From the NCBI RefSeq assembly GCF_016790065.1, contig NZ_JAEUPY010000325.1:1-36731 (forward strand): DNA of 36,731 nucleotides, in the 5' to 3' direction. Positions 1 through 18,023 of the stretch are shown in pieces. Source of the DNA: Steroidobacter sp. GTDB taxonomy: Bacteria; Pseudomonadota; Gammaproteobacteria; Steroidobacterales; Steroidobacteraceae. The notes below the pieces were generated by a model. That model was not told the DNA's origin. It saw only the letters and a list, made by a program, of their open reading frames with translations, and did no database searches. Numbering within the stretch: position 1 is the first letter of the stretch; every line of letters starts with the position of its first letter. The translations under genes and the position numbers were made by a program.

Positions 1-769
1 TGCCGGTCAATCCATCACGGCGCGCCGTTTCCATCAACAACTGGGATTCCAGGAAGTTGGTGCGATTGGCCCGTTCCAACGAATAACAAACGATGGCGCC
101 GATGACGTTGGTAAACAGCAATACACCTACATCGACCAGGCGCTGTGACCCGGGAATACCGGCCAGCGTGGCGATGATGGGATAAGAAAGCAGCACCAGT
201 AGCGAAGCAACTAGCGCCGGCCGGAACGCCAGACCCAGCATCAGATAGTTATAAATGACCGCCAACACTACCGAGGCGATCAGACTCACGCCTTGCGAGG
301 CCGCGATCACCGCCAGCACCACCACGCCGATACCAAACAAGGTGGCGCCGTACGGACATACGATGGGATACCAACGCTGATACAGCCGCGTGTGCACCAG
401 AAGCAACGCGAACAAAAAGATCGGCCCGAGCACGCTGACTCGAATCAAATCCAACGGCCGGTTCACCGGCGCCGGTAGCACCCAATGAGTCAGCGCGGAG
501 AAACCAATGACGAAACCGATGCCCAGTAACAGATTGCGGCTGATCTGGGTGCGATTGTTGGCCAGGTGGGAGCGTCGGAATTTTCGCTCCAGCTCGGCAT
601 CGTCGAATTTGAGGCGCGGAAAGCCGCGCTGGAGCTGGAGTGCGTATGCAGAACGAGGCGCCGCAGCGGTAGCGCCGGCCGCAGGAACTTTTTCTGTCGC
701 TGGCCCGGGGATTAGTTCGAATCCTGATGCTTGCGACGATCGCGCGCGTCTTTGATCAAGCGTCGCCAT
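1..769 (-). CDS. Membrane GGDEF-type signalling protein, 3' end cut by window edge
   Basis: A reading frame on the minus strand starts with ATG at 769-767 and runs off the left edge after 256 codons. Residues 1-60 are soluble and Ala/Pro-rich. A charged stretch follows (about 60-78, ELERKFRRSHLANNRTQISR). About six hydrophobic segments follow at roughly 79-96, 110-126, 140-156, 161-178, 183-203 and 213-230. The visible C-terminal part reads YSLERANRTNFLESQLL then ARRDGLTG, which is the usual junction between a membrane sensor region and a GGDEF diguanylate cyclase domain. The GGDEF motif itself would lie outside the window, so cyclase activity is inferred, not seen. No strong ribosome binding site precedes the ATG. 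The start lies inside the end of the small upstream gene (overlap 712-769), suggesting coupled expression. The probable role is c-di-GMP synthesis at the inner membrane in response to an unknown signal. Confidence 0.75.
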   Translation of the reverse strand, partial: MATLDQRRARSSQASGFELIPGPATEKVPAAGATAAAPRSAYALQLQRGFPRLKFDDAELERKFRRSHLANNRTQISRNLLLGIGFVIGFSALTHWVLPAPVNRPLDLIRVSVLGPIFLFALLLVHTRLYQRWYPIVCPYGATLFGIGVVVLAVIAASQGVSLIASVVLAVIYNYLMLGLAFRPALVASLLVLLSYPIIATLAGIPGSQRLVDVGVLLFTNVIGAIVCYSLERANRTNFLESQLLMETARRDGLTG

Positions 770-933
770 ACTTCGTAGGCATCCCAGCCCCCGGTGGATT
801 CGAGCGTTGGCTGCACCACCGTGTCGATGCCGAGCTCCGGCACCGCCAAGGCAATCGCCTCTCCGAGCTTATCGGCATTGGCCGCCGCTGAGCTGCTCAT
901 CGGTGTGACAACCGTTTCGATTTGTGTGCTCAT
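712..933 (-). CDS. Small hypothetical protein (73 aa)
   Basis: ATG at 933-931, stop TAA at 714-712. The protein is acidic in the middle and ends in a basic, charged tail. The segment GGWDAYEVWRRLIKDARDRR looks like a structured amphipathic helix, and I do not recognise the family. No signal peptide or membrane segment is visible. An internal ATG at 900 is an alternative start. No clear Shine-Dalgarno sequence is present for either. Its last 58 bases overlap the start of the membrane GGDEF gene in another frame, so either the two are translationally coupled or one of the two starts is wrong. The protein-like composition makes it more credible than the other short frames nearby, but it remains unproven. 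Confidence 0.5.
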   Translation of the reverse strand: MSTQIETVVTPMSSSAAANADKLGEAIALAVPELGIDTVVQPTLESTGGWDAYEVWRRLIKDARDRRKHQDSN

Positions 934-1233
934 AAAAAGTCGGTCGGCGGAGCGCTCTCACGCAAGTTCGGATGAAAAAAACGTGCCCATGTTATTTCTC
1001 ACCTGACTGTGAAAGCGTGCGCAGTTCTCAGTTTCAGAACCTTGAGGCGTCTTCGTGACGACTTCCGTGCGCGAAACACTCGACAGACGTGGGTGCACGT
1101 TTGAATTCGCTTGATTATGTACAAGCGAACCAACCTGCTAGCCAGGTTTGCGAGAGTAACCCTCGTTACTGCCTTCCACCAGTCAGCGCGAAAAATAAAC
1201 TTCACCCGCTAAATCGCGGCGCTGCGATATCCG

Positions 1234-1254
1234 GATTCGCGATTCGCGATTCGT
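1234..1254. repeat. Tandem 7-bp repeat, three copies
   Basis: The heptamer gattcgc occurs at 1234-1240 and 1241-1247, followed by gattcgt at 1248-1254. It lies in non-coding DNA downstream of gshA. It could be a simple slippage repeat or part of a protein binding site. No function can be assigned. Confidence 0.7.
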
Positions 1255-1276
1255 TCGCTTGCTTCTCGAACGACCG

Positions 1277-1293
1277 AGTCCGCGGCGCGGACT
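1277..1293 (-). terminator. Hairpin immediately after the gshA stop codon
   Basis: A perfect 7-bp stem (1277-1283 agtccgc with 1287-1293 gcggact) and a 3-nt loop begin at the base next to the gshA stop. There is no T-run after it in the direction of transcription, so it is not a classical intrinsic terminator. It may protect the 3' end of the mRNA or assist a factor-dependent stop. Confidence 0.35.
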
Positions 1294-2877
1294 TTACCGT
1301 GCGAAATATTTGACCAGGAACTGGTCGAAAGTCATGTCGTCGGCCGCTTCTACGGCAGCCTGTCGCTGCAACGACTCTTCGGCTTCGGCGCTGAATTCCG
1401 CCAAGCGCTGTTCGTTGGGCGGATACAAGTCCAAAAAGTAAGCTTTGTGGACTCGAGACATCCGCAGCGCGAACTGCGCGAAGCTTTCACCCGTGGTTCG
1501 CAGCTCTTGCAGGCTGCGCGCCGACGGGGTGCGATCCGGATCGTCGATCTTGGTCTGTTGCAAATCCAACGCGGCCGTATACGGCCGGCGCTCGTCGCCT
1601 TGATCCAGCAGTTCGCAAATGCCGCGCATCGAGTCGACCAGCTCCAGCGCCCAGGTCCGCAACTCTACCGGCTTTCCATTGCGGTTTAGTTTCAATCCAG
1701 GCTCGCGGCCACGCCGCGCCACGATGGCGTGATTGGCATCGAGGTGCACTTGTTCGTTGGCGTCGATCGGCTCGCTCTGCTTCAGCACACACAACGCCGC
1801 GAATGCTTCCAGAAAGCGCAACTTGTTTTGATTGACACCCACCGGATCGAAGGCGCTCACGTCCAAGGCGCGAAATTCGACATATTCGACGCCGCCACGA
1901 CGCAACGCTTGCGACGGATGCTCGCCGGAGCGCGCCACGCGTTTGGGACGGATGTAGCTGTAATACTCGTTCTCGATCTGTAACAGATTGGTGTTGAGCT
2001 GCTTATATTCGCCGTCGACTTTGACACCCATCTTTTGATAATCGGGATGGGGCGTGCTGACGGCAGCCGTCAGGTCGCGCATATATTCATCCAGACTGTT
2101 GACCGAAATCTGCACGCCGGCCTGGTTCTTGTTGCGATAGCCCAGATCGCTCATGCGCAATGACGTGGCGTGCGGGGCATAAAGCGTGCCGGGCGCCAAC
2201 GTTTCGAGCTGATGATCGCGCCCTTGCACGAACGAGCTGCACAGCGCCGGCGAATTCCCGAACAGATACAGGATCAGCCAACCATGGCGCCGGTAGTTAC
2301 GCAGTAACGCGAAATACTGTTCGGAGATGAAACTCTGCTCGGCCTGATGCTCCTGCAACGCCTCGGCCAACACCGGCCAGAAGTGTTGCGGGAAGGAATA
2401 GTTGAAATGCACGCCGGAAATGGCCTGCATCATCCGGCCGTAACGATTGCCCAAGCCCAGCCGGTACACCTCTTTGAGCTGCCCGATATTGGAGCGGCCG
2501 AAGCGCGCGATCGGAATCTCTGCATCGCCGGTGAGCATGCACGGCATGCTGGTGGCCCACAGCAGCTGCTCTTGCAGGTGCCGATAGACGAACTGATGCA
2601 GGTCGCACAGATACTGCAGCAGTTGCCAGGACTCGCGAAACGCCGGCGTCACCAACTCGATCAACGCTTCGGAATAATCGGTGGTAATGTGTTCGTGAGA
2701 GAGTGCCGAGCCCAGTGCGAGCGGATGCGAACTGTGCTCGATGCGGCCGTCCAGCGAGACGCGCAACGACTCCTTTTCCACGCCCTTCAGGCCATTCTGC
2801 AGGACGCGCGGCTCACGGGTATTGATCAGCGTCGCTAGGCGACGCTCGAAGGCGCGATCGATGCCGGAGCTGCTCAT
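1294..2877 (-). CDS. gshA: Glutamate-cysteine ligase (gamma-glutamylcysteine synthetase)
   Basis: This cytosolic ATP-dependent enzyme joins L-glutamate and L-cysteine, the first and rate-limiting step of glutathione synthesis. The 527-aa length fits the proteobacterial class 1 GshA family. Recognisable motifs in order are GLKGVEKESLRV near residue 30, the glutamate-site segment TTDYSEALIELVTP (about 65-80), ISGVHFNYSFP (about 154-164), QLNTNLLQIENEYYSYIRP (about 290-310) and YVEFRALDVSAFDP (about 330). ATG start at 2877-2875; there is no strong ribosome binding site, but the N-terminus agrees with the family. It is transcribed divergently from a GGDEF gene across 142 bp and ends at a small hairpin. 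gshB is not in the window. The other members of the glutathione pathway are therefore elsewhere, as is usual in proteobacteria. Confidence 0.96.
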   Translation of the reverse strand: MSSSGIDRAFERRLATLINTREPRVLQNGLKGVEKESLRVSLDGRIEHSSHPLALGSALSHEHITTDYSEALIELVTPAFRESWQLLQYLCDLHQFVYRHLQEQLLWATSMPCMLTGDAEIPIARFGRSNIGQLKEVYRLGLGNRYGRMMQAISGVHFNYSFPQHFWPVLAEALQEHQAEQSFISEQYFALLRNYRRHGWLILYLFGNSPALCSSFVQGRDHQLETLAPGTLYAPHATSLRMSDLGYRNKNQAGVQISVNSLDEYMRDLTAAVSTPHPDYQKMGVKVDGEYKQLNTNLLQIENEYYSYIRPKRVARSGEHPSQALRRGGVEYVEFRALDVSAFDPVGVNQNKLRFLEAFAALCVLKQSEPIDANEQVHLDANHAIVARRGREPGLKLNRNGKPVELRTWALELVDSMRGICELLDQGDERRPYTAALDLQQTKIDDPDRTPSARSLQELRTTGESFAQFALRMSRVHKAYFLDLYPPNEQRLAEFSAEAEESLQRQAAVEAADDMTFDQFLVKYFAR

Positions 2878-3010
2878 GTCAGATCAGAACTGGAAATGGC
2901 CGGCAAGTTTCCCGGCCCGCCCGCGAGGCGTCAAGCGGTCCCCCAGAACGACACAAGTGAATGATAGCCCCTGGCACAGTCACGCCTGATACCCAGACCC
3001 ACCCCCCACC

Positions 3011-3015
3011 AGGAG
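3011..3015 (+). promoter_or_regulatory. Ribosome binding site that fixes a GTG start
   Basis: AGGAG at 3011-3015, five bases before GTG 3020-3022, is the only good Shine-Dalgarno sequence near the beginning of the GGDEF gene and decides its start. Confidence 0.75.
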
Positions 3016-3019
3016 CGCC

Positions 3020-3847
3020 GTGCAGCCACCGACCGCCTTCGACCTCGACTTGCTAACCTCGCATCTGTCGATCGGAGTGGTCACAGCCCTGGCACTCACC
3101 GCTATTGCCGCCCTGGTCCGAATGCTGGTGCTGCATAACCGCCTGGCCCGGCGGACCCGCGAACTGGAGACCGAATTGGCCGCGCGCCGTGCACTGGAAG
3201 CGCGCAACGAACAGCTCAGCCGCCTGCGTCTGGCGCTGGAAACCAGTAATCAACGGCTCAAACGCCTGGTCGCGGTCGACGCTTTGACCGGCATCGCCAA
3301 CCGGCGCCAATTCGATCGCGTGCTGGAGCGGGAAGTACGCCGGGCGCGCCGCGAACAGCTGCCGCTGTCCTTGATCTTCCTAGATCTCGATGGCTTCAAG
3401 CAGTTCAACGACCGCTATGGCCACACCCATGGCGACGACGTTCTGCGCAAGGTTGCGCAGACCTTGGATGAAAGCTTTCGTCGGGGTGGCGACCTGATCG
3501 CCCGCTACGGCGGCGAAGAGTTTGCGGTCGTCCTGCCCGGCGTGGATGCGCATCGAGCCGGCCTGTATGCCGAACGCCTGCGCCGGCGCATCTGGCGGAT
3601 GGCCATTACCAATGAAGCCGGCAGCAGTAACGAACGCATCACCATCAGCGGCGGCGTCGCAACTCTGGATCCCCGCTCGGCCGAGATCGCCGCAGCCACG
3701 CCGGATGCATTGTTACGAGCGGCCGATCAGGCGCTCTATAGAGCCAAATGCCTGGGTCGCAACCGCATCGCTACGGCCGGTGCCAATTCGGCATCGAGCC
3801 CCGCGCCGGCTGACGCTGCACGCCCGCCTGTCGAGCTCGCTTCCTAA
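3020..3847 (+). CDS. Diguanylate cyclase with one N-terminal membrane segment
   Basis: Predicted to condense two GTP into cyclic di-GMP at the inner membrane. The 275-aa protein has one transmembrane segment at about residues 17-36, a charged coiled-coil linker rich in Arg/Glu/Leu at about 37-85, then a complete GGDEF domain. The domain contains DALTGIANRR, the metal-binding FLDLDGF segment, an intact active-site GGEEF preceded five residues earlier by RGGD. RGGD matches the RxxD inhibitory I-site, so product inhibition is expected. The C-terminal tail is Ala/Pro-rich and probably disordered. GTG start chosen because AGGAG lies five bases upstream. It is divergent from gshA. There is no separate sensory domain, so the input signal is unknown. 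This is the second c-di-GMP-type gene within 4 kb. Confidence 0.93.
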   Translation: MQPPTAFDLDLLTSHLSIGVVTALALTAIAALVRMLVLHNRLARRTRELETELAARRALEARNEQLSRLRLALETSNQRLKRLVAVDALTGIANRRQFDRVLEREVRRARREQLPLSLIFLDLDGFKQFNDRYGHTHGDDVLRKVAQTLDESFRRGGDLIARYGGEEFAVVLPGVDAHRAGLYAERLRRRIWRMAITNEAGSSNERITISGGVATLDPRSAEIAAATPDALLRAADQALYRAKCLGRNRIATAGANSASSPAPADAARPPVELAS

Positions 3848-3910
3848 ACTTCTAATAATCACCGACCCGCGCCCGGGCCGTCTGGCCCTACTCTTGCTTG
3901 TCACTTCCGC

Positions 3911-3947
3911 GCCGACCGCGAGCTTGCACCATTCATTCGTGGTCGGC
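3911..3947. promoter_or_regulatory. Inverted repeat overlapping the permease promoter (candidate operator)
   Basis: gccgaccgcg at 3911-3920 and cgtggtcggc at 3938-3947 are reverse complements at nine of ten positions, separated by 17 bp. The right arm abuts the candidate -10 box at 3949 and the left arm lies just upstream of the candidate -35 box at 3924. The placement suits a repressor or activator site, or a 5' stem-loop. No regulator gene adjoins the cluster. Confidence 0.4.
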
Positions 3948-3954
3948 GTATAGT
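3924..3954 (+). promoter_or_regulatory. Candidate sigma-70 promoter for the amino-alcohol cluster
   Basis: TTGCAC (3924-3929) and TATAGT (3949-3954) resemble -35 and -10 boxes with a 19-bp spacer, slightly longer than optimal. They lie about 90 bp before the permease start codon. The spacer contains one arm of an inverted repeat. Confidence 0.4.
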
Positions 3955-4043
3955 CGATTCGTCGCATTCATCCTCGATAACAACAGTTACACGGAATGTG
4001 GGTCGCTGTGCCGGCCGGCATTCGCAGCTGCAAGGAGAATCGC

Positions 4044-5606
4044 ATGACAGACAAGAAAACGGTTGGCGGCGTCACCTATCAAAACGCCGGTAAGGATTAC
4101 TTCGAAAAGCGCGGGCTGAAACGCCACGCACGCGTCTGGTCACTGTGGGCCTTGGGCGTAGGCGCGGTCATCTCGGGGCATTTCTCCGGCTGGAACTTCG
4201 GCATCGGCGCCGGCGGCTGGGGTGGCCTGTTCATCGCCGCCATCATCATCGCCATCATGTATCTGGGCCTGATTTTCAGTCTGGCCGAAATGTCGCCGGC
4301 CCTGCCCCACACCGGCGGTGCGTATTCGTTCGCCCGCAGCGCCATGGGCCCGTGGGGCGGCTTCATCACCGGTCTGGCGGAAAGTATCGAATACATCATG
4401 ACGCCGGCGGTGATCGTGTTTTTCATCGGCTCCTATCTCACCGGCATCTTCGAAACGCCAGCCGCCTATCAACCCTTGTGGTGGATCGGCTGTTATCTGG
4501 TGTTCGTGCTACTGAACTACGTGGGAGTGGAGCTTTCGTTCAAGATTTCCGTAGTGGTCACAGTGTTGGCGCTGGCGGTGCTGGTGGTGTTCTGGATCAG
4601 CGCCATTCCGCACGCGGACTTTTCGCGCTGGGCATTGAACATAGCGGTCGACCCGGACGGCAAGCTGGTGGAACTGCCGCAAGGTGGCGGCGACTTCCTG
4701 CCCTTCGGCTTCCACGGCGTGCTGGCAGCGTTGCCCTTCGCAGTGTGGTTGTTCCTGGCCATCGAAGAGTTGCCGCTGGCGGCCGAGGAGTCGGTGGATC
4801 CCAAACAAGACATGCCGAAAGGATTGATCTTTGGCATGTTCACGCTGATGTTGTCGGCGTTGATGATCATGCTGCTCAACGCTTCGATCGGCTCGCCCGA
4901 GGAAGGCAAGCTGCACGGCTCGTACTCGTTGGCCACGTCAGCGGAACCGTTGCTCGATGGCTTCCGAGTCATCTTTGCCGGCGACATCGCCAAGTTGCTG
5001 GCGTTGCTCGCGGTCATCGGCCTGATCGCCAGCTTTCACACCATCATCTTTGCGTTCGGTCGCCAGATCTATTCGCTGTCACGCGCCGGCTACTATCCAG
5101 CGGTGATGTCGATCACGCACGGCTCTCGCAAGACACCGCACATCGCGTTGTTTACCGGCGCAGCCATGGGCCTCGCGGTAATTCTTGCCGTGTGGGTCTC
5201 GCTCGGTGCCGAGAAAGGCGGTTCGGTGATCGGTGCGACGCTGCTCAACATGGCGGTGTTCGGCGCCATGATTTCGTACGCGTTCCAAGGGGTGTCGTTC
5301 ATCCTGTTACGCAAGAACATGCCGCACATCGAACGGCCTTATCGCAGCCCGCTCGGCATTCCCGGCGCGGCCGCCACTGTAGTCATCGCACTAGTCACGC
5401 TCTACTACCAGTTGCAGGATCCGGTGTATCGCGCCGGTGTGTATGCAGCTTTGGCGTGGTATGTCGCCGGTGTCGTGTACTTCGCGCTGGTGGGACGCCA
5501 CAAGCTGGTGTTGTCGCCGGAGGAAGAGTTTGCAATGACTGGCGGCCACCACGGTCATCCCGAGCGCGAGGGTTACGGCACTACCAAGGTTGATAGCGCA
5601 TCATGA
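4044..5606 (+). CDS. eat: Ethanolamine-type amino acid/polyamine/organocation permease
   Basis: An inner-membrane APC-superfamily transporter of 520 aa with about 12 hydrophobic segments. The N-terminal region (GLKRHARVWSLWALGVGAVI, then SGWNFGIGAGGWGGLFIA) and FSLAEMSPALPHTGGAYSFA are what I associate with the ethanolamine permease branch of the family. The loop EELPLAAEESVDPKQDMPKG also fits APC carriers. The start at ATG 4044 is set by AAGGAG at 4032-4037. The frame opens further upstream (3996) but that extension lacks a binding site. The stop overlaps the next start as ATGA at 5603-5606, so the permease and the ligase gene are translationally coupled. Context (gamma-glutamyl ligase, alcohol and aldehyde dehydrogenases) supports an amino alcohol such as ethanolamine as substrate. 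Another amine is possible. Confidence 0.85.
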   Translation: MTDKKTVGGVTYQNAGKDYFEKRGLKRHARVWSLWALGVGAVISGHFSGWNFGIGAGGWGGLFIAAIIIAIMYLGLIFSLAEMSPALPHTGGAYSFARSAMGPWGGFITGLAESIEYIMTPAVIVFFIGSYLTGIFETPAAYQPLWWIGCYLVFVLLNYVGVELSFKISVVVTVLALAVLVVFWISAIPHADFSRWALNIAVDPDGKLVELPQGGGDFLPFGFHGVLAALPFAVWLFLAIEELPLAAEESVDPKQDMPKGLIFGMFTLMLSALMIMLLNASIGSPEEGKLHGSYSLATSAEPLLDGFRVIFAGDIAKLLALLAVIGLIASFHTIIFAFGRQIYSLSRAGYYPAVMSITHGSRKTPHIALFTGAAMGLAVILAVWVSLGAEKGGSVIGATLLNMAVFGAMISYAFQGVSFILLRKNMPHIERPYRSPLGIPGAAATVVIALVTLYYQLQDPVYRAGVYAALAWYVAGVVYFALVGRHKLVLSPEEEFAMTGGHHGHPEREGYGTTKVDSAS

Positions 5607-6973
5607 TGGAACCTCGCCTGGTCAAGAGCGCTGCCGACGCCAAAGCCATCGTCGAGCAGCGCGGGTTGTCGCACGTCAAAGTCGGCGTGTTCGATACCGA
5701 CGGCATCATGCGCGGCAAATATATGTCGCGCGCCAAGTTCATCTCGGCCTTGGAAAGCGGCTACGGCTTCTGCGATGTGGTGCTGGGCTGGGACTGCCAG
5801 GACCAGCTCTACGACAACGTAAAATTCACCGGCTGGCACACCGGCTATCCCGACGCTCCGGTACGCATCCTGCCGGAGACTTGTCGTCCGCTGCCGTTCG
5901 AGGACAACAATCTTTTTTTCTTGAGTGAGTTCACCGGCGCGGGCGAACAGGTCTGCCCGCGCGGACTGTTACGACGAGTGCTCGACAAGGCGAATCAGCT
6001 CGGCTTTCAGGCGTACGCCGGCTTCGAGTACGAAGTGTTTTTCTTCGACGAGACGCCCGAATCGATCCGCGCCAAACATTATCGCGACTTGAAGCCCATG
6101 GCGCCGGGCTGGTTCGGCTACTCGGTGATTCGTAATTCCACGGCGTCGGAATTTTATCGTCACATGCTGACCACCTGCGACGCCATGGACTTCGGCATCG
6201 AAGGCCTGCACGAGGAAACCGGGCCGGGCGTGATCGAAGCCGCCATCGCGTTCGATAGCGCGCTCGCGTCAGCCGACAAGGCGGCGTTGTTCAAGACCTT
6301 CATCAAAGTGCTCGCCCAACGCAACAACATGATGGCGACCTTCATGGCCAAGTGGTCGCGCGACTGGCCGGGCCAGAGCGGTCACATCCATTTGTCGCTC
6401 AAGGACGCGCACGGCAAGGCGGTGTTCTACGACCAAGGCCAGCCTCACCACATGAGTGAAACCATGCGGCACTTCATCGGCGGCCAACAGCAACTCATGC
6501 CCGAGTTACTCGCCATGGTGGCACCCACGGTCAATTCCTACACGCGCTTAATTCCCGGCTTCTGGGCACCGACCGACTCGACCGTCGGCGTCGAGAATCG
6601 GACCTGCGCTTTGCGCGTCATTCCCGGCAGTGCGAAGTCACAACGCGTCGAGTATCGCGTCGCTGCCGCCGACGCCAATCCCTACATCATTCTTGCGGCG
6701 GCGTTGGGTTCCGGCTTGTGGGGTGTCGAGCATCGCATCGAGCCCGAGCCGTTGGTCGAAGGCAATGCCTACGATCATAAATTTCCCGAGCGCCTGGCAT
6801 TGCCACGGACGCTGTGGGATGCGGCCCAGCGCCTGAAACAGTCGCGCATGGCTCGCGAATACTTCGGCGACGCGTTCGTCGATCACTACGCCGCCACGCG
6901 CGAATGGGAAGAGCGCGAGTTCCGTAAGCACATTACGGATTGGGAGCTGGCGCGCTATTTTGAAATCATCTGA
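5603..6973 (+). CDS. Glutamine-synthetase-like gamma-glutamylamine ligase
   Basis: A 456-aa member of the glutamine synthetase superfamily of the PuuA/IpuC/GlnA4-like kind, which ligates glutamate to an amine with ATP rather than to ammonia. Visible active-site elements are the metal-ligand pair FEYE (Glu142, Glu144), the HEETGPGVIEAA segment (Glu204, Glu205, Glu212), SGHIHLSL (His261), the substrate-binding NSYTRLIPGFWAPT (Arg315) and ENRTCALRV (Arg333, Arg338). The adenylylation loop of housekeeping GlnA is not evident. The first of two adjacent ATG codons overlaps the permease stop. The next gene follows after 26 bp. Between an ethanolamine-type permease and two dehydrogenases, the most economical substrate is ethanolamine or another amino alcohol, giving a gamma-glutamyl-amide. 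A polyamine role cannot be excluded, but the puu oxidase and amidase genes are absent here. Confidence 0.88.
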   Translation: MMEPRLVKSAADAKAIVEQRGLSHVKVGVFDTDGIMRGKYMSRAKFISALESGYGFCDVVLGWDCQDQLYDNVKFTGWHTGYPDAPVRILPETCRPLPFEDNNLFFLSEFTGAGEQVCPRGLLRRVLDKANQLGFQAYAGFEYEVFFFDETPESIRAKHYRDLKPMAPGWFGYSVIRNSTASEFYRHMLTTCDAMDFGIEGLHEETGPGVIEAAIAFDSALASADKAALFKTFIKVLAQRNNMMATFMAKWSRDWPGQSGHIHLSLKDAHGKAVFYDQGQPHHMSETMRHFIGGQQQLMPELLAMVAPTVNSYTRLIPGFWAPTDSTVGVENRTCALRVIPGSAKSQRVEYRVAAADANPYIILAAALGSGLWGVEHRIEPEPLVEGNAYDHKFPERLALPRTLWDAAQRLKQSRMAREYFGDAFVDHYAATREWEEREFRKHITDWELARYFEII

Positions 6974-6999
6974 TTCACGTTCCTTCTTCGGGTCAGCCC

Positions 7000-8382
7000 A
7001 TGCAGAAGACGCTCAGCCCCATCGACGGCAGTGTTTATTTCGAGATCGAGCTGGCCACGCCGGCAGTCATTGACGACACGCTCGATCGGGCCCGCGCCGC
7101 ACAGCGCGCTTGGCGCAGCACTTCGGTGGCGGACCGCGCGAAAATTCTCAACCGATTTTGCGATCTGTTCGAAAGCCGACGCGCTGAGATCGCCACCGAG
7201 TTGACCTGGCAAATGGGTCGTCCCATCCGCTACACGCCTGGCGAAGTGAACGGCACCCTCGAACGCGCGCGGCACATGATCGCCATCGCGCCCCAAGCGC
7301 TCGCAGACATCGACGCCGGCCCCAAGGAAAATTTCACTCGCTTCTTACGACGCGAGCCGCTCGGTGTCGTACTCACCATTGCAGCCTGGAATTATCCTTA
7401 CCTGATCGCCGTCAACAGCGTCATTCCCGCGCTGATGGCCGGCAACGTGGTGATTTTGAAACATTCGGCGCAGACGCCATTGTGTGCCGAGCGCTTTGCC
7501 AGCTGCTTGGCCGAGGCCGGCCTGCCGGACGGCGTCTTTCAAGTGCTGCATCTCACGCACGCGGACACTGACAAACTCATTCGCGACCCTCGCATCGACT
7601 TCGTTGCCTTCACCGGCTCCGTCGCCGGCGGACACGCCGTACAACGCGCTGCCTCGGAACGTTTCATCGGCGTCGGCTTGGAGCTCGGCGGTTGCGACCC
7701 GGTCTATGTGAGACACGACGCTGATGTCGCACACGCCATCGAGAACGTAGTCGACGGCGCCTACTTCAACAGCGGTCAGTCGTGCTGCGGGCTACAACGA
7801 ATCTACGTGCACGACCACGTCTACGACACCTTCGTCGAAGGTTTCATCGATCTGACGCGCAAGTACGTGCTCGGCAATCCGCTCGAACAGAACACCACGC
7901 TCGGCCCAGTCATTCGCACCTCGGCGGCCGACACGATTCGACAGCAGATAGACGCGTCGATTCGCGCCGGCGCGAAGCCCGTCATCGACGAGTCGACTTT
8001 TGCTGTCAGCAAACCCGGCACGCCGTATCTGGCACCCCAGGTGTTATTGAACGTCGATCATTCGATGAACGTGATGCGCGAGGAAATTTTCGGCCCGGTG
8101 GCCGGTCTGATGAAAGTGACCTCGGACGAACAGGCGATCGCGCTGATGAACGACACAGTGTTCGGTCTGACCGCGGCAATCTGGACCCGCGATGAAGACG
8201 CCGCGCTGGCCATCGGCGATCGCATCGACACCGGCACCTGGTTCATGAATCGTTGCGACTATCTCGATCCGGCGCTGGCGTGGGTGGGCGTGAAGAACTC
8301 CGGCCGCGGTTGTACGTTGTCAGTGGTGGGTTACGAGCATTTGACTCGCCCCAAATCGTTTCATCTTCGCACGCGCACCTGA
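7000..8382 (+). CDS. NAD(P)-dependent aldehyde dehydrogenase
   Basis: A 460-aa aldehyde dehydrogenase, complete. The fold markers run in order: AAWNYP with the oxyanion Asn131, the cofactor-binding VILKHS (Lys154), FTGSVAGG (about 204-211), the general base Glu228 in LELGG, the nucleophile Cys262 in NSGQSCCG, and EEIFGP near residue 360. It oxidises an aldehyde to the acid. In this cluster the expected substrate is the gamma-glutamylated amino aldehyde produced by the neighbouring alcohol dehydrogenase. That assignment is inferred from context. The start ATG at 7000 has only a weak upstream purine signal (ggg at about 6990-6992). The gene lies 26 bp after the ligase gene and 62 bp before the alcohol dehydrogenase gene, consistent with one operon. 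Substrate specificity cannot be read from sequence alone. Confidence 0.93.
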   Translation: MQKTLSPIDGSVYFEIELATPAVIDDTLDRARAAQRAWRSTSVADRAKILNRFCDLFESRRAEIATELTWQMGRPIRYTPGEVNGTLERARHMIAIAPQALADIDAGPKENFTRFLRREPLGVVLTIAAWNYPYLIAVNSVIPALMAGNVVILKHSAQTPLCAERFASCLAEAGLPDGVFQVLHLTHADTDKLIRDPRIDFVAFTGSVAGGHAVQRAASERFIGVGLELGGCDPVYVRHDADVAHAIENVVDGAYFNSGQSCCGLQRIYVHDHVYDTFVEGFIDLTRKYVLGNPLEQNTTLGPVIRTSAADTIRQQIDASIRAGAKPVIDESTFAVSKPGTPYLAPQVLLNVDHSMNVMREEIFGPVAGLMKVTSDEQAIALMNDTVFGLTAAIWTRDEDAALAIGDRIDTGTWFMNRCDYLDPALAWVGVKNSGRGCTLSVVGYEHLTRPKSFHLRTRT

Positions 8383-8444
8383 AGGTCCTCCCCAGAGACA
8401 TGAGAGAGTTCGTCATCAAACCGGTTCGCTCCAAGGAAACCCTC

Positions 8445-9620
8445 ATGGCTACGTTACGGGGCAATTGGAATTATCCCACCGCGGTACGTTTCGGCCCCGG
8501 CCGCATTGCCGAGCTGGCCGACGCCTGCAAGTCGCTGGGCATGAAACGTCCGCTACTGGTGACCGATGCCGCGCTCGCCAAGTTACCCATGATCGCCACC
8601 GCCGCCGGCATCTGCCAAGCGGCCGGACTGGCGTGCGAAGTGTTCAGCGACGTGCAAGCGAATCCGGTGGAGTCGAATGTGACGAATGGCGTCAATGCCT
8701 ACCGCCGCGGTGCGCACGATGGCGTGATCGCTTTCGGTGGCGGCAGCGCGCTGGACACCGGCAAGGCCGTGGCCTTGATGGTGGGACAAACGCGCCCGAT
8801 CTGGGATTTCGAGGATCGCGAGGATTGGTACACGCGAGTGAACGTGTCCGGCATGGCACCGACGGTGGCCGTGCCAACCACTTCCGGCACCGGCTCGGAA
8901 GTCGGACGCGCCTCGGTGATTACCGACGTGCGCGATCACATCAAGAAAATCATTTTTCATCCCAAGATGTTGCCGGCCATCGTGATTGCCGATCCGGAAT
9001 TGACCTTGGGCTTGCCGGCGCCGGTGACTGCAGCGGTCGGCATGGACGCGCTGTCTCACAATCTCGAAGCCTATTGTTCGCCTTCCTATCATCCGTTGGC
9101 GGAAGGCATCGCACTGGAAGGTATGCGCTTGGTTCACGATTGGTTGGCCACCGCGGTGAAAGACGGCAGCGACATCGAAGCACGCTCGCAAATGATGGCA
9201 GCGTCACTGATGGGTGCGACGGCGTTTCAAAAAGGTTTGGGCGCGATGCATAGCCTGAGCCATCCCTGCTCGGCCAACCTGAACACCCATCATGGCCTGA
9301 CCAACGCGGTGGTGATGCCTTATGTTTTGTCGTGGAATCGCCCGGCGCTCAGCGAAAAAATGCAGCGCCTGGCCGCTTACCTGAACCTGCGGCAACATTC
9401 GTTCAGCGGCGTGCTGGATTGGATCGTGGCGTTGCGAAAAGATATCGGCGTGCCGGATACATTGAGCGAGTTGGGCGTTAAACCTGAGCACGCCCAAGCC
9501 TTCGCTCAGCAGGCGTTCGACGATCCTTCCACCGGCGGCAATCCCATCCCGGTGTCAGTGTCGGATTTCGCCCAGCTGTATCGAAACTGTATCGAAGGCC
9601 GGCTGCCGGCGTCAGCTTAG
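8445..9620 (+). CDS. Iron-containing (group III) alcohol dehydrogenase
   Basis: A 391-aa metal-dependent alcohol dehydrogenase of the FucO/EutG-like family. The cofactor motif GGGSALDTGK is at about 98-107 and PTTSGTGSE at 144-152. Metal ligands are predicted as Asp201 and His205 (GMDALSHNLEAY), His269 (GAMHSLSHP) and His283 (NTHHGLTN), spaced as in the family. The start ATG at 8445 is preceded by AAGGA at 8433-8437 and agrees with the family N-terminus (GNWNYPT). An in-frame ATG at 8400 would add 15 residues. The gene is the last of the co-directional four-gene block. The likely role is oxidation of the hydroxyl group of a gamma-glutamylated amino alcohol to the aldehyde taken by the preceding enzyme. 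Reduction of an aldehyde in the opposite direction is possible biochemically. Confidence 0.93.
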   Translation: MATLRGNWNYPTAVRFGPGRIAELADACKSLGMKRPLLVTDAALAKLPMIATAAGICQAAGLACEVFSDVQANPVESNVTNGVNAYRRGAHDGVIAFGGGSALDTGKAVALMVGQTRPIWDFEDREDWYTRVNVSGMAPTVAVPTTSGTGSEVGRASVITDVRDHIKKIIFHPKMLPAIVIADPELTLGLPAPVTAAVGMDALSHNLEAYCSPSYHPLAEGIALEGMRLVHDWLATAVKDGSDIEARSQMMAASLMGATAFQKGLGAMHSLSHPCSANLNTHHGLTNAVVMPYVLSWNRPALSEKMQRLAAYLNLRQHSFSGVLDWIVALRKDIGVPDTLSELGVKPEHAQAFAQQAFDDPSTGGNPIPVSVSDFAQLYRNCIEGRLPASA

Positions 9621-9660
9621 TCATTGGAAAATTCAGGCGTCGCGAGGCATAGTGATCGCC

Positions 9661-10035
9661 ATGCGCACTTCCCTACTCATCGGCTTGACTCTAGGTGCGG
9701 CCCTGGCCTTGCCGGCGCACGCCGACAGCATGCGCTGCGGCGGACGCGTGATTCGCGATGGCAATGCACGTGCGGAAGTACGCGCATTCTGTGGCGAACC
9801 GGCAGACGTTCAGACCCGAACGATTCTGCGTCGCCCTTCCTACACCGTCGGCGGCCGGATTGTTTATTTCGGCGAAGGCCTGGTGGAGATCCCGGTGGAA
9901 ACCTGGACTTATAACTTCGGCCCCAACAAGTTGATGCGCCGGGTGCGTTTCGTCGACGGCCTGGTCGACGATGTGGAAACGTTGGGCTACGGCTACAACG
10001 ATCCGCAGCGTGGCACCTACAACTCGGGCAACTAA
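9661..10035 (+). CDS. Small secreted DUF2845 protein
   Basis: A protein of about 124 aa with a signal peptide (basic RT, then a Leu/Ala-rich core, cleavage near ALPAHA-DS). The mature part RCGGRVIRDGNARAEVRAFCGEPADV followed by WTYNFGPNKLMRRVRFVDG matches what I recall of DUF2845, a periplasmic domain of unknown function with two conserved cysteines. The start is uncertain between ATG 9661 and GTG 9652. A GAGG at 9644-9647 is rather close to the GTG and rather far from the ATG. It follows the alcohol dehydrogenase by about 40 bp but has no evident link to amino-alcohol metabolism. Its stop overlaps the stop of the convergent MATE gene by four bases. Confidence 0.8.
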   Translation: MRTSLLIGLTLGAALALPAHADSMRCGGRVIRDGNARAEVRAFCGEPADVQTRTILRRPSYTVGGRIVYFGEGLVEIPVETWTYNFGPNKLMRRVRFVDGLVDDVETLGYGYNDPQRGTYNSGN

Positions 10036-11390
10036 CGCGCCGCTGCCAGCCGCAGCTTGGTCTCTCGCCGATAGCGTCCGACCAGCAAGACGGCGCTGAT
10101 GGTGAGGCCGATGTTCAGCCCAATCCACACCAGCACCGGCCCTTCGTCGCGGTAAACGCCGAAGTAATAGGCGAAGGCGAAGCCAACCACCCAATAAGAA
10201 AAGATGCACATCAGCATCGGGATGGTGGTGTCCTTGAAGCCGCGTAACGCGCCGGCCGCGCCCACCTGCACACCATCGGAGAATTGAAACAACGCGGCCA
10301 TGAGCAGCAACGTCGCTGCCAATTCGCGCACCGGCACATCTCGCGTATACAACGCGGCGATCTGATCATTGAAGAACAAGATCACGATGGCCGAGATCGT
10401 CATCACGACGGCGCACATCGCGACACCAATCCAGCCAGCATTGCGTGCGCCCAACAGATCGCCACGCCCGAGCGTGTGGCCCACATGAATGGTGGTTGCG
10501 GAACTGATCGCCAGCGGCACCATGAACATGAAAGCCGCGTAGTTCAGCGCGATCTGATGTCCCGCTGCAGTGACCGCGCCCATGCCACCCATCATCAACG
10601 CCGCAGCAACGAACAAACCACCTTCGGCCAGAATGCTGCCGGCAATGGGTGCACCGACCCGCGTCAACTCACCCAGCACCGGCCAATTCGGTGGATCGAT
10701 GCGCGCGAAAAAGTTGAAAGCCCGATACGCGCGATGCATTCGCACGTGTAGAAACATTACGAAGAACATCACCCACATCGAGATCGCCGTCGCCACACCA
10801 CAGCCCACCGCGCCGAGCTCGGGCGCGCCGAACTTGCCGTACATGAAAATCCAATTGCCGATCACATTCACGGTGAGGCCCAGAAAGCCGGTGAACATGA
10901 TGGGCTTGGTCCGGCCCAACCCTTCGCTGGTGTAGCGCAGAGAGAAGAACGCCAGCAGGCCCGGCATGCCCCAGCTGATCGCGTGTACATAGCCCACCGC
11001 CACCGGCAGCACGTCATCGGCGATGCCGATGGCCGGCAAGAACCAGTCGGCCTGTTGCATACCGAGGAACAACAGGATTGAAAGCAGCAGCACCAGCCAC
11101 CATGACTGACGCGCATAGACCGTGACTTTCCCGGTGTCGTTGGCGCCGTAGGCATGAGCGATGGACGGCGAGGTTGCCATCAGCAAACCGAAGCCCACGA
11201 ACATGAATAGGTTGAAGTTCGCGGCGCCCACCGCCAGCCCGGCCAGATCGACCGCGCCCAATTGACCCGCCATGACGGTGTCGGCGAAGGCCATGCCGGT
11301 GATGGAAAGATTGTTGCCCAACAGCGGTCCGCCGAGCGCGACGATGGCTCGAGCGTCCGCGGCCAGGCGGGCGCGGCTGGAAGTGCTCAT
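10032..11390 (-). CDS. MATE-family multidrug exporter (NorM-like)
   Basis: A polytopic inner-membrane antiporter of 452 aa with about 12 transmembrane segments in two homologous halves, typical of the MATE family. It would export cationic drugs or metabolites using a sodium or proton gradient. Family features include ALGGPLLGNNLSITGMAFADTVMAGQLG near the N-terminus, FGLLMATSPSIAHAYGA, and the second-half equivalents GAVTAAGHQIALNYAAFMFMVPLAISSATTIHVG and GVQVGAAGALRGFKDT. ATG at 11390-11388 is preferred because the family's first membrane helix starts soon after it. A GTG at 11453 would add 21 polar residues. Neither start has a good ribosome binding site. It is convergent with the DUF2845 gene, sharing the four bases 10032-10035, and divergent from the thiolase gene. 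The substrate is unknown. Confidence 0.92.
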   Translation of the reverse strand: MSTSSRARLAADARAIVALGGPLLGNNLSITGMAFADTVMAGQLGAVDLAGLAVGAANFNLFMFVGFGLLMATSPSIAHAYGANDTGKVTVYARQSWWLVLLLSILLFLGMQQADWFLPAIGIADDVLPVAVGYVHAISWGMPGLLAFFSLRYTSEGLGRTKPIMFTGFLGLTVNVIGNWIFMYGKFGAPELGAVGCGVATAISMWVMFFVMFLHVRMHRAYRAFNFFARIDPPNWPVLGELTRVGAPIAGSILAEGGLFVAAALMMGGMGAVTAAGHQIALNYAAFMFMVPLAISSATTIHVGHTLGRGDLLGARNAGWIGVAMCAVVMTISAIVILFFNDQIAALYTRDVPVRELAATLLLMAALFQFSDGVQVGAAGALRGFKDTTIPMLMCIFSYWVVGFAFAYYFGVYRDEGPVLVWIGLNIGLTISAVLLVGRYRRETKLRLAAAR

Positions 11391-11558
11391 ACGAATTCGG
11401 CCGCCGACGTTGGCGACCAGTGACAGTGCGGTTTCTTGAGATTGCGGCCGCACAGCCTACGGGTTTGCGCCCGGCGCGCCAACAGCGATCCCTAACTATG
11501 CTCACGCGACCACGGCTGGCATGCTGGCAGCCCTTCGTTCGCTCGTCAGGGAGCCACC

Positions 11559-12836
11559 ATGCTCGTAGGTTCTTCGATCCGTCGCGTCGCCATCCTCGGT
11601 GGCACTCGGATTCCGTTCGCACGTTCCATGGGCGTCTATGCCGAGGCCAGCAACCAGGAAATGCTGACCGCGTCGCTGCAAGGACTGGTGGAGCGGTTCA
11701 ACCTGCGCGGCGAAGTGCTTGGCGATGTCGGCGCCGGCGCAGTGCTCAAGCATTCCCGGGACTTCAACCTGACACGCGAAAGCGTGCTCGACAGCGGGCT
11801 CGCGCCGGAAACGCCGGCCTTCGATTTGCAGCGAGCCTGCGGCACCAGCCTCGACACCGCCATCGTGCTCGGCTTGAAAATCGCCACCGGTCAGATCGAC
11901 TCGGCCATCGCGGCAGGTGTGGATACAGCGAGCGACGTTCCTATCGTCTATCCCACTGCGTATCGGAAAATGCTCCTGCGCAGCGCTCGCGGTCGGTCAC
12001 TCGGCGAGCGGCTTTCGCCTTGGACGAGTTTTCGACCGAGCTTTCTGAAACCACAGCTACCCGGCGTCAGCGAGCCGCGCACCGGCATGTCGATGGGACA
12101 GCACTGCGAAAAGATGGCGCAGACCTGGCAAATCGCACGCGCGGATCAGGATCAACTGGCTTACGAAAGCCATCGCAAGGCCAGCGCGGCGTGGGAAGAA
12201 GGTTTCTATGAAGATCTGGTGGTGCCGTTTCGCGGTTTGAAGCTGGACAACAACATCCGGCGCGACACTTCGATCGAGAAGCTCGCCAAGCTCAAACCCT
12301 CGTTCTCGGCCAACGGCACGTTGACTGCCGGCAACTCCACGCCAATGACCGACGGCTCCGCTGCGGTGTTGCTCGCAAGCGAGGAATGGGCCAAGGCACG
12401 CGGCTTACCGGTGCTCGCTTATCTCAGCTACGGCAAGTATGCCGCTGTCGATTTCGTGCAGAAGGAAGGTTTGTTGATGGCGCCCGCTTACGCGGTGCCT
12501 CGCATGCTCGCCGATGCCAAGTTGAAGCTGCAGGACTTCGACATCTACGAAATCCATGAAGCCTTCGAAGCCCAGGTGCTGTGTACGTTGAAGGCGTGGG
12601 AGTCGCCGGAGTTCTGTCGCGACCGACTTGGTCTTTCTGAACCGCTCGGCGCCATTGATCGCAGCAAGATGAATTTGAAAGGCGGCAGCGTCGCCATCGG
12701 CCATCCGTTCGCCGCCACCGGCGCACGCATCATCGCCACTCTCGCCAAGCAACTCGCCCAACGCGGCAGCGGCCGCGGCCTGATCTCGATCTGCACCGCC
12801 GGCGGCATGGGCGTAACCGCGATCATCGAGAGATAA
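11559..12836 (+). CDS. Acetyl-CoA C-acyltransferase (FadI-like thiolase)
   Basis: A cytosolic thiolase of 425 aa that cleaves 3-ketoacyl-CoA to acetyl-CoA and a shortened acyl-CoA, or condenses two acetyl-CoA in reverse. All catalytic residues are visible: the nucleophile Cys94 in QRACGTSLD, His333 in EIHEAFEAQ, His382 in GSVAIGHPFAATGAR and Cys412 in CTAGGMGV. The motif NSTPMTDGSAAV at about 259-270 and DNNIRRD at about 230-236 resemble FadI. ATG 11559 is preceded by AGGGAG at 11548-11553. No fadJ-like hydratase/dehydrogenase gene adjoins it, so its place in beta-oxidation or ketoacyl-CoA metabolism cannot be settled. The gene ends just before an imperfect palindrome. Confidence 0.92.
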   Translation: MLVGSSIRRVAILGGTRIPFARSMGVYAEASNQEMLTASLQGLVERFNLRGEVLGDVGAGAVLKHSRDFNLTRESVLDSGLAPETPAFDLQRACGTSLDTAIVLGLKIATGQIDSAIAAGVDTASDVPIVYPTAYRKMLLRSARGRSLGERLSPWTSFRPSFLKPQLPGVSEPRTGMSMGQHCEKMAQTWQIARADQDQLAYESHRKASAAWEEGFYEDLVVPFRGLKLDNNIRRDTSIEKLAKLKPSFSANGTLTAGNSTPMTDGSAAVLLASEEWAKARGLPVLAYLSYGKYAAVDFVQKEGLLMAPAYAVPRMLADAKLKLQDFDIYEIHEAFEAQVLCTLKAWESPEFCRDRLGLSEPLGAIDRSKMNLKGGSVAIGHPFAATGARIIATLAKQLAQRGSGRGLISICTAGGMGVTAIIER

Positions 12837-12855
12837 ATCGGAAGCTAAAAGGGAG

Positions 12856-12897
12856 GGCGGCCGGTAGGGGTCAAAAAATTGATCCCTACCGACCGCC
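12856..12897. repeat. Imperfect 19-bp palindrome (REP-like element or terminator-like hairpin)
   Basis: Arms at 12856-12874 and 12879-12897 pair at 17 of 19 positions around a loop of four A, ggtaggggtcaa against ttgatccctacc at the core. It lies 20 bp after the thiolase stop. There is no T-run after it, which argues against a simple intrinsic terminator. The size and the two mismatches resemble repetitive extragenic palindromes, but no second copy is present in this window. Confidence 0.55.
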
Positions 12898-13274
12898 ATC
12901 CGGACTGTCACAGGAATAAGTTAAACCGGTGAACAGCCCACTGCACGAGGCGCCGCGATCCCGGGGAGGGGGCAGTAACGAATCGCGACACTTCGAACAA
13001 CGGTTGATGGAGGTTGGCGGAGCATGCGCGACCGCCAGCGACGTAAAGGGTTGAAGGGGGGTGAAGGGCGTCCTTGCCCGGGTGCATGCCCCGACCTTGC
13101 GGGTCCCTGTGAAGGTGTCCCTAATCACACGCACGCGGATCCTAAAGGGTAAAGCGACAAACCCAGGCGAATACCCTCACAGCCACAGCAGATTGTTGCC
13201 TAGCCGTGCATGAGGCCTCGTCGCAGGGCGCGCCAGTTTCTTGCCATTGGCTTACGGAAATAGCTGCAGCGCCG

Positions 13275-13322
13275 CGTCGGTAGGCATTACAAGTACCACA
13301 CCCTGGCTATTGGCCGTCGGTA
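13275..13322 (+). promoter_or_regulatory. Pair of cgtcggta boxes, candidate upstream activator sites
   Basis: cgtcggta occurs at 13275-13282 and 13315-13322, exactly 40 bp apart (about four helical turns), 45-92 bp before the sigma-54-type element. An agtacc/ggtact inverted pair (about 13291-13296 and 13319-13324) overlaps the second box. Sigma-54 promoters need an enhancer-binding protein upstream, and the position fits. The binding protein is not identified. Confidence 0.35.
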
Positions 13323-13366
13323 CTACCCCGTCGCTATCTCACTGATCTGTATCGACAATATGCTGC

Positions 13367-13385
13367 TTGGCACAGCGGTTGCTTT
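13367..13385 (+). promoter_or_regulatory. Sigma-54 (-24/-12) promoter of the PEP-CTERM gene
   Basis: TTGGCACAGCGGTTGCTTT contains TGGCAC, five bases, then TTGCT, a full match to the -24/-12 consensus recognised by RpoN. It lies 38 bp before the start codon, in the correct orientation, leaving a leader of roughly 30 bases. PEP-CTERM genes of some floc-forming bacteria are reported to depend on RpoN and the PrsK/PrsR two-component system, which supports the call. Confidence 0.75.
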
Positions 13386-13423
13386 ATCTTCGCTGCGTGC
13401 TTAGAACCAACAGGATTACCCAG

Positions 13424-13978
13424 ATGAAGCGTCTTTTTGCTCTCGTGCTGCTCGCGGTCGGCTTTATGGCCACCGCCCATGCCGACTACATCCCCGCCAC
13501 TTGGACCGACTCGGCCCCGGTGGGCAATGGCATCTACATCGGCAACCGCGCTTCGTACACCTATACCCATGACCTGACCGACAACGGCTTCCGTCCGTTG
13601 AACGACGTGATCACCAGCTTCTGGTTGTCCATCAACCTGACGGACGACGATCACAGCGCCCGCGATGGCATCGAACTGGCCTTCGTCGACCTGCCGGGCG
13701 TGACCGGCGACCGCCTGGTCTACAACTTCGACCTGGCCGGTGAAGAGTACGGCGGCTGGTCCATCCTCGGCCTGCTGCAGCTCAACGTGCTGGGCACCCT
13801 GACGGTGACCATCAATTCCATCATCGGCGACTTCAACCTGGTCGGCTCGACCTTGACCGCTCGCGGCTTGAGCAACACCGCCGGCAGCGTGCCGGAACCG
13901 GGTGCTCTGGGCCTCCTGGGCGTCGGTCTGGTTGGCATGGCTCTCGCTCGCCGCCGCAAGCAGGCGAAGCGCGCCTAA
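13424..13978 (+). CDS. PEP-CTERM sorting-domain secreted protein
   Basis: A 184-aa exported protein. Residues 1-20 are a signal peptide (MKRLFALVLLAVGFMATAHA, cleaved before Asp21). The body (about 21-150) is predicted beta-rich, without cysteine, and I recognise no named domain. The C-terminus is a complete PEP-CTERM signal: VPEP at 156-159, a hydrophobic stretch (about 160-174) and a basic RRRKQAKR tail. Such proteins are cut and anchored or released by an exosortase (EpsH/Xrt) and are tied to exopolysaccharide or floc formation. No exosortase is in the window. ATG 13424 is set by AGGA at 13412-13415; the frame's upstream extension overlaps the sigma-54 promoter. The gene stands alone between that promoter and a strong terminator, so it is a monocistronic unit. 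Confidence 0.9.
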   Translation: MKRLFALVLLAVGFMATAHADYIPATWTDSAPVGNGIYIGNRASYTYTHDLTDNGFRPLNDVITSFWLSINLTDDDHSARDGIELAFVDLPGVTGDRLVYNFDLAGEEYGGWSILGLLQLNVLGTLTVTINSIIGDFNLVGSTLTARGLSNTAGSVPEPGALGLLGVGLVGMALARRRKQAKRA

Positions 13979-14008
13979 AGCACGCATACCAATCTCCTGG
14001 TAGGGAAG

Positions 14009-14037
14009 GGCCCGCTTCGGCGGGCCTTTTTCTTTTT
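14009..14037 (+). terminator. Rho-independent terminator after the PEP-CTERM gene
   Basis: A 7-bp GC stem ggcccgc/gcgggcc closed by a ttcg tetraloop (14009-14026) is followed by tttttcttttt. This is a textbook intrinsic terminator 30 bp after the stop codon. Confidence 0.93.
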
Positions 14038-14084
14038 AGGGGCGTTTTTCTTTTTGCGGGTCGGGGTCATTAGACTGGCGCCCC

Positions 14085-15173: not shown

Positions 15174-15892
15174 TGTTCGGCCGCTTCCTCGAAATCAGTC
15201 TGTACGCTCCCGACATTCGGGACTCGCTGGCGTTCTACGAATCGCTCGGCTTCGTGCAGGCACCGGTCGGCGAAGCACTCAATCATCCCTATGCGGTGGT
15301 CACCGACGGCCGCTTGTTTCTGGGACTGCACGGAGCAACCATTGCCTCTCCGGCGCTGACATTCGTCATGCCGCGCCTCATGCATGGCATCGAACAGCTC
15401 GAACGATTGGGCATCGAGCTGGAGAACATCCAGCTCGGCAACGAAGTCTTCAATCGGGTCAGCTTTCGCGATCCGTCCGGTCAATGCGTCAACGTGTTCG
15501 AAGCACGCACCTTTTCGCCGCCGCAGCTCGACACCGACCCGGCCACCACCTGCGGTTATTTCAGCGAGTTCGCGCTGCCAGTGCGCGAGCCAGGCCCGAT
15601 GCGCGTGTTCTGGGAAGCGCTGGGTTTCGTCGCCTGGGAGGAGCAACCTGAGCCATTCGCGCGTACGGCGATTACCAGTGACCACCTCAATCTGGCGTTG
15701 TATCGTTCGCGAGCTTTTCGTCAGCCGGTGCTGACGTTCGAAGATCCAGACATGCGTGAGCGCCTGGCTCGGCTCAAGGAACGCGGCTGCCAGCTTTCCG
15801 ACGAAATGCCCGATAGTCTCGACGAATCGTGTAACGCCATCCTGATCGCGCCGGAAGGAACGCGGCTGCTGCTGTTACAGTCTGACGATTGA
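15173..15892 (+). CDS. VOC-superfamily (glyoxalase/dioxygenase-fold) protein
   Basis: A 239-aa soluble protein with two tandem vicinal-oxygen-chelate modules. The first is about residues 3-110 (FLEISLYAPDIRDSLAFYESLGF through FRDPSGQCVNVFEA). The second is about 125-236 (YFSEFALPVREPGPMRVFWEALGF through IAPEGTRLLLLQ). The usual metal ligands of true glyoxalase I are not clearly conserved: the first strand of the first module carries Glu rather than His (FLEIS), and the final strand gives VNVFEA. Catalysis is therefore uncertain and a binding or immunity-like role is possible. Its ATG overlaps the hemH stop by one base, so it is translationally coupled to ferrochelatase; a link to heme or porphyrin handling is only inference from this. 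Confidence 0.8.
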   Translation: MFGRFLEISLYAPDIRDSLAFYESLGFVQAPVGEALNHPYAVVTDGRLFLGLHGATIASPALTFVMPRLMHGIEQLERLGIELENIQLGNEVFNRVSFRDPSGQCVNVFEARTFSPPQLDTDPATTCGYFSEFALPVREPGPMRVFWEALGFVAWEEQPEPFARTAITSDHLNLALYRSRAFRQPVLTFEDPDMRERLARLKERGCQLSDEMPDSLDESCNAILIAPEGTRLLLLQSDD

Positions 15893-15924
15893 CAGCTGTC
15901 GCCGGCGCGACGCTGTATACATCC

Positions 15925-15930: not shown

Positions 15931-15935
15931 AACCA

Positions 15936-18011: not shown

Positions 18012-18023
18012 CTCTAGATAATT

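Follow-up and report, generated by a model that had tools for sequence, protein, structure and literature searches.

Ethanolamine from phosphatidylethanolamine is an abundant source of carbon and nitrogen, and bacterial operons that use it through gamma-glutamylated intermediates have been described. In Phaeobacter MED193, the operon has the order RpiR-GGAH-EtoVWX-ETAGA-GAADDH-GETADH; its four enzymes and the binding protein are reported to be raised on phosphorylethanolamine, and EtoX is reported to bind ethanolamine at 7.9 µM (PMC10132767). For Chromohalobacter salexigens, Table 2 of a review lists PF00120, PF00465, PF00171, and PF05013 as the families of its ethanolamine pathway (PMC9397018), which is termed “predicted in silico” in the paper on GlnA4 (PMC6529630) and “demonstrated” in the MED193 paper (PMC10132767). 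Here we describe four genes in a 36,731-nucleotide stretch of DNA from the soil bacterium Steroidobacter sp. (contig NZ_JAEUPY010000325.1; the whole stretch is called the window) that very probably form an ethanolamine utilization operon of the gamma-glutamylation type. The route is known in other bacteria, and what differs here, as judged from sequence comparison, is the clade of the ligase. An initial annotation of the window had called this arrangement little described in gammaproteobacteria. That wording fails as it stands, given the families that the review lists for C. salexigens, and it was only partly right, since the pathway and its enzyme families have been published both for that gammaproteobacterium and for Phaeobacter.

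Four genes and a proposed route

The sequence confirms the initially annotated layout of four open reading frames (ORFs), all on the forward strand and tightly spaced. The first gene (4044 to 5606, with the ATG at 4044 and the stop at 5606) encodes an APC-family permease resembling the ethanolamine permease Eat, its nearest model being TIGR00908 (376.4 bits). It is preceded by a Shine-Dalgarno-like AAGGAG on the same strand (4032 to 4037), and the start of the cluster first given as 3911 takes in upstream DNA. An ATGA overlap joins it to the second gene (5603 to 6973), which encodes a glutamine synthetase (GS)-like gamma-glutamylamide ligase, a proposed ethanolamine gamma-glutamylase of the clade labeled GSw (Gln-synt_C, 328.9 bits). 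After a gap of 26 bp follows the gene for an aldehyde dehydrogenase (ALDH; 7000 to 8382; Aldedh, 415.2 bits) and, after a further 62 bp, that for an iron-type alcohol dehydrogenase (ADH; 8445 to 9620, with the ATG at 8445 and the stop at 9620; Fe-ADH, PF00465/PF25137). The Pfam assignment of the permease is AA_permease_2, and the PF00120 ligase, the PF00171 ALDH, and the PF00465 dehydrogenase thus lie within one same-strand cluster. Glu228 and Cys262, the catalytic residues named in the initial annotation, stand exactly at those positions of the ALDH, and the motifs of the ADH contain Asp201, His205, His269, and His283, which we take from the family to be metal binders. None of the four proteins reaches the cut-off of a listed NCBIfam family (for the ALDH, among the best 25 of 45). 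Matches from a promoter and terminator scan were no more frequent than in shuffled sequences.

In the proposed pathway, the permease would import ethanolamine and the ligase, judging from its family and context, would use ATP to join the amine to the gamma-carboxyl of glutamate, giving gamma-glutamylethanolamide. The ADH would oxidize the masked alcohol to gamma-glutamylaminoacetaldehyde, which the ALDH would convert to gamma-glutamylglycine, and glutamate and glycine would be freed by a hydrolase from another locus, for which a class I glutamine amidotransferase homologue is the likeliest candidate. Such a route would dispense with acetaldehyde, vitamin B12, and a microcompartment. No EutB match was found in the source assembly (8.5 Mb, 937 contigs, the window being contig 231; 96.4% complete, 5.6% contaminated) by a search that recovered the Escherichia coli control and that did not include EutC; among 398 genomes sampled from the phylum, 8 of the 10 with a window-type ligase also have no EutB match.

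Three products of the same genome are candidate hydrolases for the last step: a homologue (42%) of an amidotransferase that sister operons encode (contig C876), a PuuD-like hydrolase (C862), and an N-formylglutamate amidohydrolase adjoining another GS-like gene (40%; C402). In the locus on C862 (L037), which is possibly a polyamine locus, the PuuD-like hydrolase is accompanied by a ligase with 46% identity to the Csal_0679-type clade and by two products named by eye, a GntR-type regulator and a class III aminotransferase. The locus on C402 (L039; C402:10500-22949) encodes, in a row at 7342 to 10989, an RpiR-type regulator, an isochorismatase-like hydrolase (named by eye), a GS-like ligase, and the N-formylglutamate amidohydrolase, and it is likely to represent another gamma-glutamyl pathway.

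Gene context and transport in related loci

Gene context was surveyed by mapping 22 query proteins over 105 loci by tblastn and counting neighbors within 9 kb. Picking the longest ORFs had given wrong-frame genes in GC-rich loci, and codon-usage scoring and then the tblastn panel were used instead. A locus was counted if its ligase was at least 45% identical to its reference, near-copies included; partners were accepted above 45% identity for ALDH and ADH, 40% for the permease, and 55% for the binding protein, and at an E value of ≤1e-15 only for hydrolases. The 76 window-type loci comprise the window, 12 loci from the order, 47 named loci, 7 hand-picked plasmid loci, and 9 from the phylum. 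The 19 loci of the Csal_0679 type (after the C. salexigens ligase) comprise 14 chosen from 42 genomes other than the source genome, 4 plasmid loci, and the paralogue on C862.

The initial annotation had suggested looking for the same genes together elsewhere. Among the window-type loci, an ALDH was found near the ligase in 65 of the 76 and an ADH in 66, with both in 58, which indicates that the four-gene arrangement is beyond chance. An Eat-type permease or EtoX-type binding protein was present in 36/76. The co-occurring gamma-glutamyl hydrolase that had also been foreseen has a candidate in 43/76 loci, where a gene for an amidotransferase or N-formylglutamate amidohydrolase lies close to that of the ligase, but none in the window cluster itself. 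For the Csal_0679-type loci, the corresponding figures are 13/19 for ALDH with ADH, 10/19 for an Eat- or EtoX-type transporter, and 9/19 for a hydrolase. The ligase adjoins an Fe-ADH gene without an ALDH gene in six loci (L026, L069, L074, L085, L054, and L055), where another aldehyde dehydrogenase may serve. The ADH match in Legionella parisiensis (L062, 10810 to 12004) falls in two pieces, and this copy may be interrupted.

Window-type ligases are encoded in 13 of 196 genomes of the order (E ≤ 1e-100) and in 10 of 398 genomes of the phylum (1e-120), the source genome included in both counts. The 47 named loci, from a contig search, include Steroidobacter, Povalibacter, Legionella, Colwellia, Marinobacterium, Marinomonas, Vibrio, Kangiella, Ketobacter, Halioglobus, and Woeseia, along with two records labeled Desulfobacterales; the nearest named ligases, from Steroidobacter and Peristeroidobacter, are 93% identical to that of the window.

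The transporters point toward ethanolamine. The window permease is 69% (L113) and 66% (L121) identical to permeases adjoining Csal_0679-type ligases and 49% identical to a Thermomicrobium roseum permease annotated as “eat,” which also stands with a ligase of that type. Two permeases beside window-type ligases were scanned, and both exceed the TIGR00908 cut-off of 381.75 bits (580.8 bits for L030 and 550.8 bits for L026). EtoX-type binding proteins of tripartite ATP-independent periplasmic (TRAP) transporters occur near window-type ligases in 8/76 loci. The two that were compared with the Protein Data Bank (PDB), from Vibrio (L067) and from Steroidobacteraceae (L049, whose ligase is 76% identical to that of the window), match 4UAB with 559.5 and 520.3 bits, with the next-best structures at 67.2 and 67.3 bits. 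The 4UAB structure is described as Csal_0678 with ethanolamine bound (PMC12410723), and ethanolamine binding by Csal_0678 is also reported in PMC4646407, in a passage that carries no PDB code. For the TRAP binding protein, structure prediction gave a model of low confidence (mean predicted local distance difference test [pLDDT] score, 36.7), which was set aside. A gene for an M81/MlrC-type metallopeptidase, identified by Pfam for one copy (from L049), lies near permease or TRAP genes upstream of the ligase in seven loci (L046, L049 to L053, and L087).

On a Paracoccus pantotrophus plasmid (L093, 6127 to 14107), genes for a hydrolase, a Csal-type ligase, an ALDH, and an Fe-ADH are joined to bhcB, bhcC, and bhcD, as would be expected if the product were glycine entering the beta-hydroxyaspartate cycle. 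Insertion sequence genes lie upstream of this cluster.

The ligase clade and its partners

C. salexigens and MED193 were represented by stand-ins, namely, 5dm3, 4UAB, and the operons of Paracoccus and Ruegeria; the Paracoccus denitrificans and Ruegeria plasmids have the MED193 layout with an annotated iron-containing ADH. We identified 5dm3 as Csal_0679 via the titles returned by a search with the ligase structure model, which itself (pLDDT, 76.7) confirms the GS fold and nothing further.

The initial description of the ligase active site as intact was largely borne out. The ligase equals E. coli GlnA at the metal-binding Glu142, Glu144, Glu205, Glu212, His261, and Glu350 and also at Arg315, Arg333, Arg338, Arg352, Gly257, and His263, so that, of the residues compared, those for the metal and the ATP phosphates and most of those for glutamate are kept. 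However, Asn264 is replaced by Pro256 and the flap Glu327 by Trp321, and Tyr179 has no counterpart. The flap column holds Trp in 77 and Phe in 2 of 79 window-type rows. One or the other also fills it in each of the 20 Csal-type and 3 IpuC-type rows, and PuuA has Tyr; the GlnA4 model is reported to have Phe at this position and PauA7 to have Trp (PMC6529630).

By its place in the ligase tree, the window ligase belongs to a clade separate from the Csal_0679 type, in line with its score against 5dm3 (202.7 bits, versus 603 for a Paracoccus ligase). The tree, made by a quick method from 93 of 104 rows (11 near-copies dropped) with Shimodaira-Hasegawa approximate likelihood ratio test (SH-aLRT) support only, places the window-type rows on one side of a branch with 99% support, and the Csal-type rows form a clade with 99% support if the second, distant ligase of L092 is not counted. 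IpuC-annotated ligases stand on their own branch. The deeper forks of the tree are unsettled, and the program warns of long branches meeting between these groups.

The window ALDH is 51 to 52% identical to the ALDHs of the P. denitrificans and Ruegeria operons and 50% identical to that of P. pantotrophus, and the window ADH is 53 to 55% and 60% identical to the respective ADHs, versus 31 to 32% to FucO/EutG. An ALDH tree was built from 67 rows, without near-copies and five other loci. In it, three window-type operons (L065, L096, and L106, the last long-branched) have ALDHs that fall among those of Csal-type operons, and an approximately unbiased (AU) test rejects a single clade of Csal-type-operon ALDHs (P = 0.0024). 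All operon ADHs stand apart from EutG and FucO in the ADH tree (70 rows), with no mixing of ligase types: the Csal-linked ADHs group in one clade (97/92), and the AU test does not reject monophyly of the window-linked ADHs (P = 0.34), so that the ADH gives no evidence of repeated ligase exchange. Quick ALDH and ADH trees had been inspected before the AU tests were chosen. Permease, TRAP, and oxidoreductase families are common to loci of both ligase clades in the panel mapping. An exchange of ligases in the history of these clades, which we infer, would thus be supported by the ALDH together with the shared permease and TRAP types and not by the ADH. The evidence leans toward two separate GS-like ligase clades serving the same committed ethanolamine step in otherwise interchangeable operons, the ligase having been swapped at least once and the ALDH, Fe-ADH, and transporters retained.

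Elsewhere in the window, an ORF at 13367 to 13978 encodes a protein whose C terminus, VPEPGALGLLGVGLVGMALARRRK plus a few residues, resembles a PEP-CTERM sorting tail.

Alternative readings and comparison with known systems

The choice of ethanolamine over a close amino alcohol is our inference from these comparisons. The same chemistry could instead act mainly on another small amino alcohol (alaninol, 3-aminopropanol, or serinol), which seems unlikely: the ADH would suit any amino alcohol, and the ligase is nearer to two IpuC-annotated ligases (37.9 and 40.1% identity) than to four Csal_0679-type ligases (29 to 32% for Ruegeria and two Paracoccus, 36% for Thermomicrobium, an outlying member of that clade), and another structure of the Csal_0678 binding protein, 4xf5, is reported to hold an amino-propanol. 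Against this reading, the binding proteins beside window-type ligases match ethanolamine-bound 4UAB, and both linked permeases that were scanned score above the cut-off of the ethanolamine permease model. It is still less probable that the cluster is a polyamine or monoamine operon of the PuuA or IpuC kind, whose ligase would glutamylate putrescine or isopropylamine with the ADH and ALDH acting later. The ligase superfamily is shared, and PotF-type binding proteins lie near 5/76 loci; however, the PuuA model (NF045547) scores the window ligase at 184.7 bits against a curated cut-off of 650, neither a PuuB-type oxidase nor a P450 such as stands beside ipuC is found among the four genes, and PuuD is encoded at a different locus of the genome, together with a ligase and an aminotransferase. 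That a true ammonia-assimilating GS lies beside oxidoreductases by chance is hardly credible. Most catalytic residues are kept, and Asp50 has a weakly aligned Asp counterpart, yet the ligase reaches 218.8 of the 429.15 bits required by the GlnA model, the Glu327 column is aromatic throughout the window-type rows, and the linkage to ALDH and ADH is conserved.

Several observations nevertheless weigh against an ethanolamine operon. The permease had been called ethanolamine-type; TIGR00908 is indeed its nearest model, but the score lies 5 bits below the curated cut-off. Ligase specificity may differ, given the low identity to Csal_0679-type ligases and the closer match to IpuC-annotated ones, and the column of the ammonia-linked Asp50 of GS holds Asp71, in a stretch that aligns poorly. 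An ALDH or ADH is not nearby in 18/76 window-type loci, some of which are short contigs. The plasmid relatives L098 and L099 have aminotransferases and Pot-type ATP-binding cassette transporters without an ADH, which indicates that the wider ligase clade is not uniform. No hydrolase is found among the four genes, nor any hydrolase of the panel in positions 1 to 20000 of the window. No avoidance between EutB and the window-type ligase was detected (EutB in 2/10 versus 80/398 overall). The initially proposed gamma-glutamylation route is backed by the published operons, by neighboring binding proteins whose type of ligand is known, and by the absence of EutB matches from the genome, and ethanolamine utilization by this route remains by far the most probable role of the four genes.

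If two ligase clades do serve the same ethanolamine step, the window clade would be an uncharacterized family of ethanolamine gamma-glutamylases in Steroidobacter, Legionella, Marinobacterium, Marinomonas, Colwellia, Vibrio, and others, and surveys using EutBC or the Csal_0679-type ligase alone could overlook it. A literature search of open-licence papers (titles and abstract starts among the matches listed) gave no pointer to a window-type ligase. The locus would also illustrate how a pathway can retain its partner proteins when, as seems to have happened here, the enzyme of the first step is exchanged.

Relative to the canonical eut system with its EutBC lyase, the window operon would share the substrate and differ in chemistry. 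IpuC, from Paenarthrobacter aurescens TC1 plasmids, is like the window ligase GS-like, but its neighbors include a P450, a ferredoxin, a short-chain dehydrogenase, and an amidotransferase. The GlnA4 cluster of Streptomyces coelicolor (SCO1610-1615), by its description, likewise combines a GS-like ligase, an ALDH, and an alcohol-oxidizing dehydrogenase, and other Streptomyces clusters of this type are described with a putative ethanolamine permease, as in the window; it differs in that its dehydrogenase is of the short-chain rather than the iron type and that the cluster contains its own regulator and amidotransferase (PMC6529630). Closest are the operons of C. salexigens and MED193, with which the window shares the families of its ligase, ALDH, and iron dehydrogenase, and its ligase-ALDH-ADH order is the same as in their Paracoccus and Ruegeria relatives. 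In contrast, the window has an Eat-type permease in place of TRAP genes, and its four-gene cluster includes neither a hydrolase nor an RpiR gene. The oxidation pair and the transporters appear to be of the same families as in the Chromohalobacter and Phaeobacter operons, whereas the ligase, lying outside the Csal_0679 clade, is of a different one.

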